Below, one piece after another: positions 539 to 22,979 of a stretch of 64,000 nucleotides of DNA. The position numbers were made by a program, and so were the translations under genes. Below the pieces are notes generated by a model, which was given only the letters and a program-made list of their open reading frames with translations, ran no database searches and was not told the DNA's origin. The stretch comes from Pseudacidobacterium ailaaui (lineage in GTDB: Bacteria; Acidobacteriota; Terriglobia; Terriglobales; Acidobacteriaceae): assembly GCF_000688455.1 (NCBI RefSeq), contig NZ_JIAL01000001.1, positions 1,023,001 through 1,087,000 of the forward strand, given 5' to 3'. Within the stretch, counting starts at the first letter, position 1; each line of letters starts with the position of its first letter.

Positions 539-575
539 TGTCCACTTCCGGACACTCGGGTTCCGCAAATGGACA
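539..575 (+). promoter_or_regulatory. Tandem TGT-N10-ACA elements (putative enhancer-binding-protein sites)
   Basis: Two 16-bp elements sit 21 bp apart (two helical turns). Site A at 539-554 is TGTCC-ACTTCC-GGACA, a perfect 5+5 inverted repeat. Site B at 560-575 is GTTCC-GCAAAT-GGACA, degenerate in its left half. The same arrangement with the same 21-bp spacing recurs at 21049-21085. TGT-N10-ACA is the known shape of NifA-type upstream activating sites; assigning these to a sigma-54 activator is inference. Confidence 0.55.
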
Positions 576-648: not shown

Positions 649-664
649 TGGAAGTTCACTTGCC
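649..664 (+). promoter_or_regulatory. Putative sigma-54-like promoter of the ADOP permease
   Basis: TGGAAGTTCACTTGCC has the required GG and GC dinucleotides exactly 10 nt apart and a good TTGC -12 box. It lies 74 bp after the tandem upstream elements. The -24 box is only a partial match. The predicted start site (~675) would fall on the first bases of the Shine-Dalgarno sequence (GGAGAGG, 674-680), which is a caveat. Confidence 0.4.
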
Positions 665-688: not shown

Positions 689-3109
689 ATGCAATCATTC
701 CTGCAGGATTTTCGATACGCCGTGCGGCAATTGAGAAAGTCACCCGGATTCGGGCTGACGGTCATTGCCACACTGGCCTCAAGCATTGCCATCACTGCGG
801 CAGTCTTCAGTGTGCTGTATGCCATGGTGGTCCGGCCTCTTCCTTATTCGCAGCCGGAAAGGATTACTGTGCTCCAGCCTTACTCCCCCGAGGGATATAC
901 GCAGCCGGCGTCGTATCCGGAGTATCTGGATTGGCGCAGGATGAACCACAGCTTTTCCGCCCTTGCGGCCTATAATCCGTACTACAACGTGAATTTTGAG
1001 GGCCCGGCGGGACCAGCTGCGCTACAGGCGGTGCGGGCAAGTGACAATTTCTTTGATGTCTTTGGCGTGCGTCCGGTCCTGGGCCGCACCTTTGCCCCCG
1101 GAGAAGACCAGGACGGCAAAAATGACGTTGTTGTCCTGAGTTATGAAATCTGGCAGCAGTTTTTTGGCTCACAGAAAAGCGTGATTGGCCAGAAAGTGAA
1201 GCTGGACGGGCGCCCCTACACCATCATCGGCGTCATGCCAGCCGGCTTCCGTTTTCCGATTGGAAAAATCAACGCGATTTACATCCCGCTGCATCTGTCG
1301 CAGCAGCAGCGCGAAGGACGCGGAAGCCACTGGCTGCCTACCGTGGGCCGTCTGAAGCCTGGGGTCTCTCTGAAGCAGGCCCAAGCCGACCTGGACCAGG
1401 TTTTTGCCGACCTGGGACGCTCCTACCCTGACACAAAGGGCAGAAAGGTCAAGCTATTGGAGGTCGCAAACTTCTTCCTGGGCGACACGCAGGATGCGCT
1501 GCGGCTACTCCTTTGCGCGGTGCTTGCGTTGCTCGCCATTGGTTGCGTGAATGTAGCAGGTCTGCTGCTGGTGCGCGGCGTCAAACGCGAGCGGGAGATG
1601 GCGCTGCGTTCCGCAGTGGGTGCAGACCGCCTGCGGATCGTCCGGCAGATGCTGACCGAGGCCCTGCTCTTTGCCCTCTGCGGAGCGCTCGGCGGTGTTC
1701 TGCTCGCTTATGCCCTGCTGCGCGGAATCCAGATGCTGCTGATTGCGGCTTTGTCTCGTGGCGCAGAGGTTGAGCTGAATCTGCCTGTATTGCTGGCGGC
1801 CTTGTTCGTCTCGATCCTCGTTACCATTCTGGCCTCCCTTGCCCCTGCTCTGCGCCTGTCCCGGACCTCCCCAGGGCTGGCCCTGCGATCTGGGGGAAAT
1901 ACCGGAACTTCCCGTGGGCAGCACCGCCTGCGGGCCGGATTTGTCATCACCCAGGTGGCCCTCGCACTGGCCCTGCTGGTGGTTTCCGGATTACTTCTCC
2001 ATATGCTTGGCGGACTGAAAAATACGGACCTCGGATTCTCTCCGGACCGCATCCTCACTGCAGAAATTGACCTTTCTCCCGGAAGATACGGGGGCCGGGA
2101 CGTCATGACTGATTTCTACAACCCGCTCTTTGAGAAGGTCCGCGCCATCCCCGGAGTCCGGGCCGTCGGCGTCATCCAGGTACTTCCCATCCAGGACTGG
2201 GGATGGAATTCTGAAATCCATGTTGCCGGCACGCCGGTCCCTCCGCCAAACGTAAACACGTTGGCCGAGCTGCGCATCGTGTCTCCGGGTTATTTTGACG
2301 TCTTTCAGGTCCCGCTACTGCGGGGCCGCCTGCTCGATGCTGGCCTGGACACGCCGGCATCCAAGCCAGTCATTGTCGTGAATGAAGCTTTTGTAAAAAA
2401 GTTCATCCCCGCAGGGCAGGACCCGATTGGCATGCATCTGGATACTGACGAAAAGCCAGTCATCATCGGAGTGGTGAAAAATATCCGCCAAAATCTCACC
2501 GAACCACCGCTGGCAGAAATGGACTATATCACCTCTCAGGTCCCCCGAGAGGAAAGCCTGCGTGTACTGGGAAATATGACGCTGGTCATCCGTACGGGCG
2601 TGCCTCCGGAAAGCATCATTCCCGCACTGCGCAGGGCCTATCACGAGGTAGATCCGGCACTCCCGTTCCGCACTCCTGTAACCATGCGCACCGTCATCGC
2701 TGATCGGTTGATTTTTGAGCGGCTGGAAAACTGGCTGTTTGGTGCCTTCGCCGCTCTGGCCGTTCTTCTCGCCGTCATTGGACTTTATGGCCTCATCTGC
2801 CATGAAGTTGAATTGGAGACCCGAGACATTGGCATTCGGATGGCGCTGGGGGCCAGTCGTCGCCATGTGATGGCTGACGTCTACCGTCGCGTAGGCTGGA
2901 TGCTCAGCAGCGGGGTGATCATTGGTCTTGTCCTCACCTGGTCCATGCGCCGGTATATCAGCTCCGTGGTGACTCTGCGCCTGGAACAAGACCTGCTCCG
3001 GATCATGGCCCTGGCCGCTTTGCTGGCCGCAACAGGCCTTCTGGCTGCGATCTTCCCGGCTCGCCGCGCAGCTTCCATAGAACCTGTGGAAGCCCTCCGC
3101 GACGAGTAG
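689..3109 (+). CDS. ADOP-family ABC transporter permease (MacB/FtsX-like, duplicated)
   Basis: An 806-residue inner-membrane protein with two MacB-periplasmic-core plus FtsX modules in tandem, the length and design of the acidobacterial duplicated orphan permease family. The start at 689 (MQSFLQDFRYAVRQLRKSPGF) is the family's characteristic N terminus and follows GGAGAGG by 8 nt; the upstream in-frame extension looks non-coding. One TM helix lies near residues 20-45, then a periplasmic domain, a three-helix FtsX block around 265-395, a further TM near 425-445, a second periplasmic domain, and a final FtsX block ending RRAASIEPVEALRDE. No ATPase gene is adjacent, as usual for 'orphan' members, so the energising partner and substrate are unknown. 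Two shared regulatory elements and a possible sigma-54 promoter lie upstream. ADOPs often occur as large paralogous sets in acidobacterial genomes. Confidence 0.9.
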   Translation: MQSFLQDFRYAVRQLRKSPGFGLTVIATLASSIAITAAVFSVLYAMVVRPLPYSQPERITVLQPYSPEGYTQPASYPEYLDWRRMNHSFSALAAYNPYYNVNFEGPAGPAALQAVRASDNFFDVFGVRPVLGRTFAPGEDQDGKNDVVVLSYEIWQQFFGSQKSVIGQKVKLDGRPYTIIGVMPAGFRFPIGKINAIYIPLHLSQQQREGRGSHWLPTVGRLKPGVSLKQAQADLDQVFADLGRSYPDTKGRKVKLLEVANFFLGDTQDALRLLLCAVLALLAIGCVNVAGLLLVRGVKREREMALRSAVGADRLRIVRQMLTEALLFALCGALGGVLLAYALLRGIQMLLIAALSRGAEVELNLPVLLAALFVSILVTILASLAPALRLSRTSPGLALRSGGNTGTSRGQHRLRAGFVITQVALALALLVVSGLLLHMLGGLKNTDLGFSPDRILTAEIDLSPGRYGGRDVMTDFYNPLFEKVRAIPGVRAVGVIQVLPIQDWGWNSEIHVAGTPVPPPNVNTLAELRIVSPGYFDVFQVPLLRGRLLDAGLDTPASKPVIVVNEAFVKKFIPAGQDPIGMHLDTDEKPVIIGVVKNIRQNLTEPPLAEMDYITSQVPREESLRVLGNMTLVIRTGVPPESIIPALRRAYHEVDPALPFRTPVTMRTVIADRLIFERLENWLFGAFAALAVLLAVIGLYGLICHEVELETRDIGIRMALGASRRHVMADVYRRVGWMLSSGVIIGLVLTWSMRRYISSVVTLRLEQDLLRIMALAALLAATGLLAAIFPARRAASIEPVEALRDE

Positions 3110-16570: not shown

Positions 16571-19354
16571 CTAAATAACGCTGATGGCGGCAGCACCTAA
16601 CGCCAGCTGCGAAAAGAGCTGTGACCAGTCCAGGATACCGCGCAAAATCGTCGGCCGGAAGGTCTTCTCCGGGACCACAATCGTATCTCCCGGATAAATC
16701 TTTGCCGATTCAAACGTATTTCCCCAAAGTCCGCTGTTCACTGTGCGGCTCACCACTGACCCATCCGCACGAATGATGAACATGTGCTTTTTGTCCGCAT
16801 CGCGGTTGGGACCACCTGCCATCTTCAGATAATCGCCCACCCGACGTCCGGGCATGAACATGAACGAATTCTGGTCATAAACTGCGCCTACAACGTTGAC
16901 CGTGGAGGGCTTCGGAGGCACCACGAAGACATCGCCATCTTCCAGAGGCAGATCGGGAAGGCTGTCTACGCCTCTGGCATCGGGCCGGATCTGCAGAACA
17001 ATCCGGCCGGTCGCACGTAGCTGGTGCAGGCGGGAGAGCAGGTCGCGGGCGCTGGCCTGCGCGGAAGTTGCACTGGCCACATCCTGCGCGGATGCGGCCG
17101 AAGCCGTTCCGGCAAGTACGCCGCGCTGTGTCTCCAGCTCCACACTCTGTACATACTCATCCAGACGCTGCTGCTGCAGTACACGGGTGGATTCGCGGGT
17201 AAATTCCGAGCCGTAAAGATAGGCCCCAGGGGTCAGGCCTCCGGCACGGACCACAAGCTGCCGCAGTGTTTCTCCCGGACGCACGCTGTAGATTCCAGCA
17301 CTGACAAATTCTCCTTCCAGACGTACAAATTTCGTCTGCTGTTCCTGAGGCACCCGCAGATCGGCCTGCGAGAAGACCGTCACCACGTCTCCCGGCTGCA
17401 ACGCCAGGTCTTGTGTGGGATCGTGTTCCAGCACCAGCTTGCCAAGATCAAAAGGGACCAGGGAGGTCTTCAGGGTCTGCGGGTCCATGCGCTCGATGAC
17501 AGCATAATGCCAGTCAATCTCTGGCGCTGAAAGCTGCACATCATTCCGTCGCGTCGCCGAAGCTGTGTTCTGGGTTATCACCCGCCGGAATCCCAGGCTT
17601 CCGCTGCCCGTCAGTTGCGAGGGGTTCAGGGTGCTGCCGGACGACTGCATCGGGGAGGAAGAAGAACTCCCGGATTGCTGAAGCTGCAGGTTTTGAAAAA
17701 GATCAGTCCCCGTGCCGGAGGATGGTGCACCATTGGCCTGCGTTGGCGGGAGCAGCCCCTCATACTGTTGCGGCTGCTGGAGATACACGCTCCCCTGCGC
17801 ATAAGGATATTCATTGGCGCCCGCTCGCCCCTGGCCGGTCTGACCATTCTGGTTTTGCTCATCAGGTCCGGGAGCAACCAGAGCATACTGTCCGTTCGGC
17901 AGCTTCTGGAAGCGGTTCTGCATCTGCCACTGCTGGTAGGCCTGCCGCGATTGCAGGTCCACCGGATGCGAAGGCTGATACTGCACCGGCCCGGAAACAT
18001 AAGGCTGAAACTCCGGAGTCGGCAGCCCTAACTGGGCGCGCTTCCAGTAATAATCGCGCGTGATGAGGGAGTCCTTGTCCGGGATGAGGTCGCTCAACTT
18101 CATCCCCTCGTGCCAGGCAAAGCGCCCGGGATTGGCCGTATTGCCGCGAAGCGTCACCGTCTTTTCAAATCTTGCAGGGATCGAAAGGATGCGCAGCACA
18201 TCTCCATCCCGCAGCACAGTGCCCAGACCAGCAGCGTTATAGGCAACTTCCATGGCCTCCCGCGCCTGGTGCCCATCGTTGCGCTCGATGGAAATGCGGG
18301 CGTCTGCCGCAAGGGAGGAAGCCCCTCCGGCATAGGCCAGCACTTGCTCGATCGTGGTCTTCGCATCCAGCAGCTCATAGATGCCCGGGTGGCGCACACT
18401 TCCGGTAAGCGCTACCTGCGGCCCGGCAGGTGGAATAAAGATGACATCGCCGGCAAGAAGCTGCACGTCCCTCGATTTGTCGCCATTCACAAGCAAGTCA
18501 TAAAGATCAAAGTGCGTCACCGTCTGGCCATTGCGCTTCAGTTGAATGTCGCGCAAAGACCCCTGGCTCGATGGCCCTCCGGAGGAAAACAGCGCATTCA
18601 CCAGCGTACTGAGTGCGCTGACGGTATACATGCCCGGACGCCTCGCCTGCCCCACCACATACACCTGGATCGAGCGGGTCTGTCCAATGTCCACGGTCAG
18701 ATCAAAATTGCGGTAGACCCGTCCGATTTCCGTACGCAGATGCTGGTCCAGCGCCGAAAAAGGAAGCCCCGCGACATGGATGCTCCCCACCTGCGGAAGA
18801 TAAATGGACCCCGTGCGGTCCACACGCACATCTGCATTGAAATTGACCTGCCCCCAGACCCGGATACGCAGCACATCGCCTGCGCCAATGACATAATCCG
18901 CCGTGACCGGCGCCTGTTCCAGCGGAGTAAACGTGGTGGGCACGTAGCGGAACAGGTCAGCCCCGAAAATCGGCAGCACTTCTCCTGTGGTTCCGGCCAC
19001 AAACTTCTGGAACTCGGTCAGCGGTTCGGGAGGAGCAGGAACCGTTGTTGGCAGGATGCTTCTTTGCTGTTGATTACCGGAGGTCCCCAGGTCCGTGTAT
19101 GTCCGCGTGCCCAGGGGTGCGCCCAGAGGAACATTTCTCTCTCCCGTCCCGGCGCCAAGGCCCAGTCCAAGGGACCCTTGGCCCGCTATGTCCACTGCTC
19201 CGCACGCTGCGGAGGCAGCATTGACCGGATCGGAACAGTCTACCTGCCCCTGGTTCTGGCTTTGCGCATCCATGTCCATAGCGCTTTGGGAGTGGACCTG
19301 CGTTGTGGCCGCCAGCAGGAACACCGCGAGAGGAAAGACCAGTTGCTTACGCAT
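16571..19354 (-). CDS. Large polysaccharide export protein (Wza-like, multiple SLBB domains)
   Basis: A 927-residue exported protein. The signal peptide MRKQLVFPLAVFLLAATTQVHS supports the start at 19354; there is no lipobox, unlike Wza. A polysaccharide-export domain (YVIGAGDVLRIRVWGQVNFN, then DRTGSIYLPQVG) lies at about residues 155-235. SLBB-type domains follow (VYVVGQARRPGMYTV; VALTGSVRHPGIYEL; VTLRGNTANPGRF; VRLEGEFVSAGIYSV; VNVVGAVYDQNSFMF). Between the third and fourth is a low-complexity Gln/Ser/Gly-rich insert of ~150 residues. The C terminus (GILDWSQLFSQLALGAAAISVI) is hydrophobic. At over twice the size of Wza, it resembles the long SLBB outer-membrane channels for exopolysaccharide. 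It should form the export pore for a polymer begun by the adjacent sugar transferase. Confidence 0.88.
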   Translation of the reverse strand: MRKQLVFPLAVFLLAATTQVHSQSAMDMDAQSQNQGQVDCSDPVNAASAACGAVDIAGQGSLGLGLGAGTGERNVPLGAPLGTRTYTDLGTSGNQQQRSILPTTVPAPPEPLTEFQKFVAGTTGEVLPIFGADLFRYVPTTFTPLEQAPVTADYVIGAGDVLRIRVWGQVNFNADVRVDRTGSIYLPQVGSIHVAGLPFSALDQHLRTEIGRVYRNFDLTVDIGQTRSIQVYVVGQARRPGMYTVSALSTLVNALFSSGGPSSQGSLRDIQLKRNGQTVTHFDLYDLLVNGDKSRDVQLLAGDVIFIPPAGPQVALTGSVRHPGIYELLDAKTTIEQVLAYAGGASSLAADARISIERNDGHQAREAMEVAYNAAGLGTVLRDGDVLRILSIPARFEKTVTLRGNTANPGRFAWHEGMKLSDLIPDKDSLITRDYYWKRAQLGLPTPEFQPYVSGPVQYQPSHPVDLQSRQAYQQWQMQNRFQKLPNGQYALVAPGPDEQNQNGQTGQGRAGANEYPYAQGSVYLQQPQQYEGLLPPTQANGAPSSGTGTDLFQNLQLQQSGSSSSSPMQSSGSTLNPSQLTGSGSLGFRRVITQNTASATRRNDVQLSAPEIDWHYAVIERMDPQTLKTSLVPFDLGKLVLEHDPTQDLALQPGDVVTVFSQADLRVPQEQQTKFVRLEGEFVSAGIYSVRPGETLRQLVVRAGGLTPGAYLYGSEFTRESTRVLQQQRLDEYVQSVELETQRGVLAGTASAASAQDVASATSAQASARDLLSRLHQLRATGRIVLQIRPDARGVDSLPDLPLEDGDVFVVPPKPSTVNVVGAVYDQNSFMFMPGRRVGDYLKMAGGPNRDADKKHMFIIRADGSVVSRTVNSGLWGNTFESAKIYPGDTIVVPEKTFRPTILRGILDWSQLFSQLALGAAAISVI

Positions 19355-19491
19355 AACACATGCAGCACGCCTCTGAGGCCGGCCGCGTATTGACTCCTTG
19401 AAACAGCGTGTCGTTTTCAATCCCACGTGCAGGGGCCTTGCGCTGCTGCAACTCTACAGGCGGCCCCGGTGCGCCATCGTGCGCTCTTGCA

Positions 19492-21048: not shown

Positions 21049-21085
21049 TGTCCGGAAATGGACAGGCCATGCCCATTTCCGGACA
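21049..21085 (+). promoter_or_regulatory. Tandem TGT-N10-ACA elements upstream of the winged-helix/ATPase gene
   Basis: Site A at 21049-21064 is TGTCC-GGAAAT-GGACA. Site B at 21070-21085 is TGCCC-ATTTCC-GGACA. They are 21 bp apart, exactly as at 539-575. Their asymmetric cores are reverse complements, so the pair also reads as a perfect 12-bp inverted repeat (21050-21061 / 21073-21084). They begin only 4 bp after the aldo/keto reductase stop. Confidence 0.6.
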
Positions 21086-21105
21086 GCATCGGGACAACGA
21101 TGCTG
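21084..21105. repeat. Inverted repeat CAGCATCG / CGATGCTG
   Basis: Arms at 21084-21091 and 21098-21105 surround a 6-nt loop. It directly abuts the second TGT-N10-ACA element and may be a 3' hairpin of the aldo/keto reductase transcript; no T-run follows. Confidence 0.45.
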
Positions 21106-21153
21106 GAAACGAAACCCTTATCCTTGCAACAATGGCCATGTCTTCTCGTGCGT

Positions 21154-21169
21154 TGGCCCATGGTTTGCT
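21154..21169 (+). promoter_or_regulatory. Putative sigma-54 promoter of the winged-helix/ATPase gene
   Basis: TGGCCCATGGTTTGCT fits the -24/-12 consensus (TGGCACG-N4-TTGCW) at 10 of 12 fixed positions, with GG and GC exactly 10 nt apart. It lies 69 bp after the tandem upstream elements and predicts a start near 21180, giving a ~45-nt leader before the ATG at 21225. Confidence 0.55.
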
Positions 21170-21224: not shown

Positions 21225-22979
21225 ATGAAGCAGTTTGGTTGCTTCCGGATCGATGCTCAGAACGAATTGCTTTGGCGTGACGGCAAACCGGTGCCGCTCG
21301 CACCCAAGCCATTTGCCGTCCTGCGCTATCTGGTGGAGAGCCCCCAGCGCCTGATTACCCATGACGAGCTTCTTGATGCGCTCTGGCCGGAAACCTATGT
21401 TCAGCCTCAGGTACTGCGCACTTATATCCTGGAGCTGCGCAAGGTCCTCGGCGATGACCCTGACCGTCCGCAATATATTCTGACCGTTCCCAAGCGGGGA
21501 TATCGCTTTGTATGCGGAGTTGAGGAGGTCCACGGTTCCTCACCGTCCGGCGCATCCGCAACCGAAGCAGGAGTGGGCCTTGTTGGACGTGAAGCCGAAC
21601 TGGCAAAGCTTGAAAGCGATTTTGCCCGGGCCCTCCGGGGACAGCGCCAGATGGTCTTTCTCTGCGGCGATGCGGGCATGGGGAAGACCTTCCTTGTGGA
21701 CGCCTTTTGTGAGCGTGTCGGTCACAGCAGCCATCTGCGGATTGCCCGGGGCCAGTCGATGGAGGGTTTCGGCGGCAAGGAGGCGCTCTACCCCGTCCGC
21801 GAGGCACTGGGGCAACTGCTAGCCTATGAAAGGCCCAGCCAGGTCCTGGCCAGACTGGTCCCGGGCTGGTTTGGCAAAAAGGCCGAGGACCCAGGCAGGC
21901 CTCCTTCCCTGGGAGAATTGTGCGAGGCAGTCGAAGCACTGGCACAGGAGGAACCGCTTTTACTGGTCTTTGAAGATCTGCATTGGGCCGACGCTTCCAC
22001 GCTCGACTTCATCTCTGCTCTGGCCCGCAGGCGCGGGCAGGCCCGTCTGATGCTGCTGGCAAGCTGCCGTCCGGGAGAATTGGATGGGCAGCATCCGCTG
22101 AAGCGCCTGAAAGAGGACCTGACCACGCACCGCCTCTGTTGCGTCATCCCTCTTCTGGCCCTCGACCGCGAAGCCGTCGCCGGATATCTCAAGCGTCAGC
22201 TTCAGACCAGTTGCCTGCCCTCCGGCCTGGCCAGTTTCGTCCATCAGCACTCTGAAGGCAATCCGCTGTTCATGGCCGCCATTCTTGACCATTTGCAAAG
22301 AGAGCGTCTCATGGAGAACCAAAATGGCACCTGGCAGCTGTCGCTCCCTCTGTCAGAGATCGAACTGGGAATCCCCCAGGGCCTGCTCGGCATGATGGAC
22401 CTCCAACTGGAGCGCCTGTCTGAGGCGGACCGGCGGCTGCTTGAAGCTGGCAGTATCGTCGGCGCCATTTTTCCTGCCTGGGCCGCAGCCGCTGCCTTAA
22501 AGACCGGCGTACCGGATGTGGAAGATGAGTTTGCCTCGCTTGCCAGGCGGACGCGCCTGCTGAATCCGGCCGGGCAGGATGAGCTGCCGGACGGTACGCG
22601 CTCCACGTTTTATGTGTTCGCGCATGGACTGTTTCGTGAAGCCCTCTACTCGCGACAGCCAGCGGCCCGCCGCGCAGAGCGGCACCGCCGCGTCGCAGAA
22701 CATCTGAAGACCATGTTTGCCGGAAGTGAGGCAAATATTGCCTCGGAGCTGGCCCGTCACTATGAAGCCGCAGGCTGCTGGCAACAAGCCATTGAAGCGC
22801 TGCATCTGGCCGCCGACACCGCCGGAAACCGTGAAGCACAACACGCCGCCTGCGAGATGCTCCGCCACGCGCTGGACCTGTGTACCCATCTGAAGGCGCA
22901 GGAGCGCAAGGCCCTTGAACCGGTCCTCAAGAAAAAGCTGAAAAAATACTCCGAATGGACCTCGATGGAGATCGCCTGA
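21225..22979 (+). CDS. Winged-helix (OmpR/CadC-type) - AAA/NACHT-like ATPase fusion regulator
   Basis: A 584-residue cytoplasmic protein. Residues 1-97 are a C-terminal-type response-regulator DNA-binding domain placed at the N terminus (FRIDAQNELLWRDG, PKPFAVLRYLVESP, LRTYILELRKVLGDD, ILTVPKRGYRFV). A P-loop ATPase follows, with Walker A GDAGMGKT at 148-155 and Walker B LLLVFEDLHWAD. Winged-helix-like and helical segments then end in an amphipathic basic tail. The layout resembles the signal-integrating STAND/AfsR-like 'predicted ATPase' regulators, but the long TPR tail of many of these is absent or short. The ligand and target genes are unknown. The upstream region carries paired enhancer-like sites and a sigma-54-like promoter. 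Confidence 0.85.
   Translation: MKQFGCFRIDAQNELLWRDGKPVPLAPKPFAVLRYLVESPQRLITHDELLDALWPETYVQPQVLRTYILELRKVLGDDPDRPQYILTVPKRGYRFVCGVEEVHGSSPSGASATEAGVGLVGREAELAKLESDFARALRGQRQMVFLCGDAGMGKTFLVDAFCERVGHSSHLRIARGQSMEGFGGKEALYPVREALGQLLAYERPSQVLARLVPGWFGKKAEDPGRPPSLGELCEAVEALAQEEPLLLVFEDLHWADASTLDFISALARRRGQARLMLLASCRPGELDGQHPLKRLKEDLTTHRLCCVIPLLALDREAVAGYLKRQLQTSCLPSGLASFVHQHSEGNPLFMAAILDHLQRERLMENQNGTWQLSLPLSEIELGIPQGLLGMMDLQLERLSEADRRLLEAGSIVGAIFPAWAAAAALKTGVPDVEDEFASLARRTRLLNPAGQDELPDGTRSTFYVFAHGLFREALYSRQPAARRAERHRRVAEHLKTMFAGSEANIASELARHYEAAGCWQQAIEALHLAADTAGNREAQHAACEMLRHALDLCTHLKAQERKALEPVLKKKLKKYSEWTSMEIA

Follow-up and report, generated by a model that had tools for sequence, protein, structure and literature searches.

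Which protein reads the paired dyad elements in front of a putative regulator gene of Pseudacidobacterium ailaaui, and which other genes are placed under the same control? The elements lie in a window of 64 000 nucleotides (the whole stretch of DNA analysed here), which corresponds to positions 1023001-1087000 of one 3.69-Mb contig. A preliminary description, made from the sequence alone, had taken them for NifA-type activator sites upstream of a sigma-54 promoter. NtrC-type activators work through phosphorylation, binding to upstream sites and activation of sigma-54 RNA polymerase. Here, we report that the dyads and promoters of the window look like a regulon, but not that of NifA. As activator of the dyads, the best candidate is a response regulator of the NtrC family that has a histidine kinase of its own. 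Judging from the sequences of this genome and its relatives, we give a probability of roughly 0.8 to the reading that this regulator activates its own exporter operon, some dispersed permease genes of the ADOP (acidobacterial duplicated orphan permease) family and the putative regulator gene.

Results

Two loci with paired dyads and a predicted sigma-54 promoter

The features of the first locus, named after its predicted STAND-type product, are as follows.

21049..21064, no strand: enhancer dyad 1, TGTCCGGAAATGGACA, exact TGTCC-N6-GGACA, fitting TGTCCR-N4-YGGACA
21070..21085, no strand: enhancer dyad 2, TGCCCATTTCCGGACA, one mismatch, core orientation opposite to that of dyad 1
21154..21169, + strand: predicted sigma-54 -24/-12 promoter, TGGCCCATGGTTTGCT, GG-N10-GC, 69 bp past dyad 2
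21225..22979, + strand: gene of a putative STAND-type regulator, with a ToxR/OmpR-like winged helix (PF00486), an AAA_16 ATPase and a helical C-terminal part

The second locus lies near the start of the window.

539..554, no strand: enhancer dyad 1, TGTCCACTTCCGGACA
560..575, no strand: enhancer dyad 2, GTTCCGCAAATGGACA, two mismatches, again 21 bp on
649..664, + strand: predicted sigma-54 promoter, TGGAAGTTCACTTGCC
689..3109, + strand: ADOP-family duplicated ABC permease (TIGR03434, 831.1 bits against a cut-off of 622.3)

Direct reading confirmed the paired 16-bp elements starting 21 bp apart (21049 and 21070) and the promoter 69 bp further on, and the next gene has its ATG at 21225. The second locus at 539-664, described as having the same architecture, was also confirmed, and it would drive the ADOP-family permease. 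The dyads of each pair have the common core TGTCCATTTCCGGACA in opposite orientations, which makes each pair an inverted, not a direct, repeat; both dyads of the STAND locus fit a purine at position 6 and a pyrimidine at position 11 (R6/Y11). Both promoters are of the GG-N10-GC type with TGG and TGC boxes, and rpoN is encoded in the genome (Sigma54_AID match, 51.7 bits against a cut-off of 23.8). At the second locus the long open reading frame opens at 569, inside dyad 2 and before the promoter; the true ADOP start is most likely the ATG at 689. Dyads and promoter are also present at the STAND orthologue of a same-genus genome. Elsewhere in the window, a polysaccharide export protein with several SLBB domains is encoded at 16571-19426 (- strand).

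The product of 21225-22979 had been regarded as a winged-helix/P-loop fusion regulator. Both parts were found, and the description that now fits the protein best is a STAND-type transcription regulator whose winged helix is ToxR/OmpR-like. Its AlphaFold2 model (mean pLDDT 84.5, 17 sequences) matched Apaf-1, MalT and a STAND-TPR protein in Foldseek with modest TM-scores of 0.26-0.32 on the query, and a ToxR winged helix was matched over about 108 columns. The ADOP protein of the window has only MacB_PCD and FtsX domains in Pfam, with no fused ATPase, and its model (mean pLDDT 83.6) matched YbbAP, MacB, LolC/E and, lower, BceB. ADOP copies over the family cut-off number seven to 14 per genome in the three genomes searched.

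The pair pattern against chance

Allowing up to three mismatches, the pair pattern was matched twice in the window, whereas 100 dinucleotide shuffles of it and 20 Mb of sequence simulated with a first-order Markov model gave no match. The whole 3.69-Mb genome gave three matches at this stringency against one for the reversed-pattern control; with up to two mismatches there were two, both in the window, and none for the control. The third match, at 3075574 with three mismatches, lies upstream of an ADOP gene and is followed 64 bp on by a promoter match. That ADOP (G000:C1:3075724-3078278) is in two pieces, covering profile positions 1-311 and 311-803, and is apparently frameshifted.

The expectation that the pairs exceed background genome-wide held for pairs with up to two mismatches but not for exact single dyads, which showed no enrichment in this genome (five against four in the reversed control) and failed as proof. 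With single dyads at background, the signal resides only in their pairing, in the R/Y-extended form or in the context of a promoter. In a scan of relatives for pairs 21 bp apart, as the preliminary description proposed, the strict search of 150 genomes of the family found a match in 14 and its control in one. Several of the 14 are probably chance matches, and the regulator introduced below is present in 13 of them. As a definition of the regulon the 21-bp pair proved too narrow, because the operon promoters described in the next section mostly use 20 bp.

An exporter operon with the same sites and a candidate activator

The pair search of the 150 family genomes singled out one relative, G039, with five dyad pairs. 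One of these, without mismatch, stands upstream of an operon of the order HlyD adaptor-ABC ATPase-ABC ATPase-TolC-response regulator-histidine kinase, and the other four stand upstream of ADOP genes, of which one, behind the fifth pair, is split like that of the third site above. The orthologue of this response regulator in the window's genome, P0004 (G000:C1:3299886-3301286), has a receiver (PF00072), a sigma-54 AAA+ domain (PF00158) and a Fis-type HTH (PF02954), which places it in the NtrC family, with the P0004-type regulator scoring below the cut-off of the NtrC model TIGR01818 itself (399.2 against 558.6 bits). Of the 150 family genomes, 78 hold an orthologue (E 1e-140 or better). In place of GAFTGA, the loop of the orthologues has GAFTDA in 77 and GAYTDA in three of 80 sequences; both variants, found in Desulfovibrio vulgaris activators, are given as compatible with activation in passages of PMC4641369. 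The kinase has two hydrophobic segments with very few residues between them (judged by hydropathy only, in 14 kinases and P0005), so that it probably receives its signal within the membrane or through a partner protein.

In the relatives, the operon has the order HlyD adaptor-ABC ATPase 1-ADOP (none to three or more)-ABC ATPase 2-TolC-response regulator-histidine kinase. HlyD was seen at 17 of 20 loci around regulator orthologues, and the remaining gene order was constant within the stretches examined. In ten of these loci, one to three ADOP genes within the stretch examined separate the ATPase genes or precede the second, the other ten having none; ATPase and permease are separate genes here, unlike the fused MacB. 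The adaptor passes TIGR01730 (RND-type periplasmic adaptors). Neither the ATPases nor the channel reach a cut-off, the closest models being DarD, MacB and LolD for the ATPases and TolC for the channel.

The operon promoter carries the sites of the window. A dyad with at most one mismatch was found upstream of HlyD at 16 of 16 loci (15 of the twenty regulator loci with an HlyD start, plus G039), 14 of which had a promoter match scoring at least 8. A second set of 36 operon windows was counted from 82 loci by keeping only HlyD matches of at least 50% identity that start within the first 60 residues and have 150 bp upstream; it combines the named genome collection with G000 and G039, includes one genome twice and overlaps the first set, so that the two are not independent. 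A dyad with at most one mismatch was present in 34 of these windows (exact in 28) and in none for the reversed control, and a GG-N10-GC match (score at least 7 of 12) lay at -28 to -39 in all 36. Counted as 35 distinct loci, 34 had a dyad with up to two mismatches and all 35 a promoter match. Outside the positions of the search pattern, R6 and Y11 held in 34 of 34 operon dyads, and A or T was found at position 9 in 34 and at position 8 in 33; the conserved R6/Y11 gives the refined site TGTCCR-N4-YGGACA.

These results bear on two alternatives. The first is that the GG-N10-GC matches are incidental and that the dyads control a sigma-70-type promoter. Promoter-like matches are weak when taken alone (about 2% of 16-bp slots score at least 8 by chance), but all 36 operon windows have one in a nearly constant position. 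Together with the phased spacing and the presence of rpoN, this makes the alternative very improbable, and a sigma-54 promoter with tandem enhancer-type sites, as originally claimed, is supported. The second alternative, that the dyads are bound by NifA or by a one-component activator similar to it, drew on their fit to the shape TGT-N10-ACA. The sites are, however, more specific than this shape and follow the operon of the response regulator. Moreover, this genome encodes ten sigma-54 activators with a strong AAA+ match; all nine that were scanned score below the NifA cut-off (528.85 bits), and the one left is a near copy (99.8% identity) of a scanned one. Binding by NifA is thus hardly credible, and we prefer the NtrC-family response regulator as the candidate. 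Two of the sigma-54 activators (G000:C1:290657-291157 and 2960291-2960791) are 99.8% identical over 478 residues and represent a recent duplication.

In the window's genome, the HlyD-ABC-ABC-TolC operon (3307205-3312023) has a dyad pair with zero and two mismatches, 20 bp apart, and a promoter. The genes of regulator and kinase do not adjoin it, an oppositely oriented gene lying between, unlike in the relatives examined, and a dyad with at most one mismatch was not found in the 12-kb stretch around them. Self-amplification may therefore have been lost in this genome, for which autoregulation as such is unsupported.

Co-occurrence and helical phasing

For comparison across genomes we defined a composite site, an exact dyad-N68-98-TGG-N10-GC, and searched it in the 150 family genomes. 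It was found in 57 of the 78 genomes with the regulator (126 hits against 12 for the reversed control) and in 16 of the 72 without (21 hits against eight); in both totals, a few dyads enter twice because they pair with alternative promoter matches. The association has a Fisher p of 3e-10, which is optimistic as related genomes and promoters are not independent. With one genome per genus, the composite was present in 25 of 37 genomes with and six of 42 without the regulator (p 2e-6, still inflated by kinship). The exact composite was absent from 21 of the 78 regulator-holding genomes. Base 6 was not a purine in 14 of the 126 hits with the regulator and in nine of the 21 without, which is what one would see if many hits of the second group arose by chance.

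The distances between dyad and promoter peak near 71, 82 and 93-94 bp among 112 hits with R6 in regulator-holding genomes, as predicted for sites on one helix face; the 12 hits in genomes without the regulator showed no pattern. Co-occurrence was computed for the P0004 orthologue only, one of the ten activators. With so many strong AAA+ activators encoded in this genome, the dyads might belong to another of them, or to a repressor, the link to P0004 being indirect. We consider this unlikely: of the 35 distinct loci of the P0004 operon, 34 have the dyads upstream, the occurrence of the dyads across genomes follows that of the P0004 orthologue, and they are phased to the promoter like activator sites. 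P0004 accordingly remains our candidate, and a regulon including both loci of the window, as had been suspected, is supported by the same dyads and promoter at the exporter operons and by their co-occurrence with the regulator.

Predicted members of the regulon

Besides the operon, we inspected 57 further composite sites in regulator-holding genomes, from which sites taken as adjoining the regulator's own operon, already seen, lacking R6/Y11 or near contig ends had been omitted. The first gene past these sites encodes an ADOP in 27 cases, HlyD in nine, a receiver-SpoIIE phosphatase in seven and none of the expected products in 14, which speaks against the reading. Among the nine HlyD sites, some probably belong to the operon of the regulator itself, which extra permease genes have lengthened or a contig end has cut. 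Three more sites were inspected in genomes counted as regulator-less, one being at an HlyD operon of an incomplete genome and two at other genes. Both domains of the receiver-SpoIIE proteins were identified by Pfam in the two that were run, the other five being judged from their translations; in all seven, the receiver is 42-62% identical to that of the activator. One composite site lies upstream of a DUF4097 ('toastrack') protein (L342:364-1209).

Membership in the window's genome would comprise the HlyD operon, two ADOP genes (1023 and 3075 kb) and the STAND gene. Dyads and promoter accompany two of eight ADOPs in this genome, three of 14 in G039 and three of 13 in G017 (in the last two, of those over the family cut-off). 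A single regulon of all ADOPs was rejected, as the sites are absent from six of eight, 11 of 14 and ten of 13, respectively.

STAND orthologues (E 1e-60 or better) occur in 27 of the 150 family genomes, 24 of these being among the 78 that hold the regulator. Among the orthologues of at least 48% identity, including the gene of the window, a dyad with at most one mismatch was found in ten of 18, with a promoter match downstream in all ten; it was absent from the other eight and from all ten of the more distant orthologues.

Discussion

Proposed mechanism

The sites, the promoters, the operon, the co-occurrence and the phasing are properties of the sequences themselves, and from them we infer binding, activation and pump assembly as follows. 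Both dyads of a pair would be upstream activator sites for one response regulator, P0004. Its partner histidine kinase would phosphorylate it, and the phosphorylated regulator, as an oligomer, would bind the dyad pair on one face of the DNA and drive sigma-54 RNA polymerase at the promoter, which at the STAND locus lies 69 bp further on. As the operon promoter of the relatives carries the same sites, the regulator should amplify itself there. It would also switch on some ADOP permeases encoded elsewhere and, in some species, the receiver-SpoIIE phosphatase, a possible branch to partner-switching control. The STAND regulator would form a second tier under P0004. The signal is probably envelope stress.

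The shared regulation, together with the relatives encoded inside the operon, leads us to hypothesize that the dispersed ADOPs use the ATPases of the operon. They would borrow its two ATPases, adaptor and outer-membrane channel to make up a MacAB-TolC-like exporter with exchangeable permeases, and a duplicated single-chain permease would suit two different ATPases.

Relation to known systems

NtrC-type systems with tandem upstream sites are alike in the paired dyads phased upstream of GG-N10-GC and in an activator composed of receiver, AAA+ domain and Fis-type HTH. Nevertheless, there are distinct differences. The site sequence is another one, all 80 sequences have a GAFTDA or GAYTDA loop in place of GAFTGA, and the targets are parts of an exporter, whereas NtrC-type systems target nitrogen genes.

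The export machinery resembles MacAB-TolC, and also the darobactin system DarBCD, in its periplasmic adaptor, its ATPases nearest to DarD, MacB and LolD, its TolC-like channel and its MacB_PCD/FtsX permease. At the level of genes only, a MacAB-TolC-like unit of adaptor, ATPase, MacB-like permease and TolC is found together in the ten of 20 loci with ADOP. It differs in that the ATPase is separate from the permease, two different ATPases are present and the permease is a duplicated single chain, often encoded elsewhere. The best Foldseek match of the ADOP model is YbbAP of E. coli (9ge6_A, E 2.8e-17), with a low TM-score of 0.44 and 13% identity, a likeness that concerns the permease only.

The Bce modules (BceRS-BceAB) use a response regulator of the OmpR type; here it is an NtrC-family sigma-54 regulator, HlyD and TolC are present and the organism is Gram-negative. 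The two are alike in an ABC permease standing beside a kinase with almost no extracytoplasmic part, as parts of PMC10314905 describe for Bce. More tentatively, and with the odds against it, the system may be a sigma-54-run Gram-negative analogue of Bce, in which a kinase that lacks a periplasmic domain senses how a MacAB-like exporter is working (a fixed adaptor, two different ATPases and a channel with many interchangeable, dispersed ADOPs), and the regulator expands the permease set, the operon and the STAND second tier together.

The name ADOP records the absence of an adjoining ATPase gene. For a subset of these permeases, a common promoter code provides the link to a pair of ATPases, an adaptor, an outer-membrane channel and a two-component system, which is a testable answer for that subset. 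It also defines a sigma-54 regulon in a phylum for which our literature search found none described. This search returned no description of the site, the activator or a link of orphan permeases to an ATPase operon, and did not find TIGR03434 in any of the papers searched; the term 'duplicated orphan permease' was met in one, on Dyadobacter (PMC11573002). A link of sigma-54 to FtsX-like (COG0577) permeases is described for gamma-Proteobacteria, Opitutia and Bacteroidia in PMC12316311, whose main text lacks the word stem 'acidobacteri' and whose pertinent sections present no comparable activator, site or operon. It looks as if the general link between sigma-54 and FtsX-like permeases is known and the regulon itself is newly recognised. 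In Granulicella, the MacA and MacB proteins are raised at high sugar according to excerpts of PMC7074687, a loose hint only.
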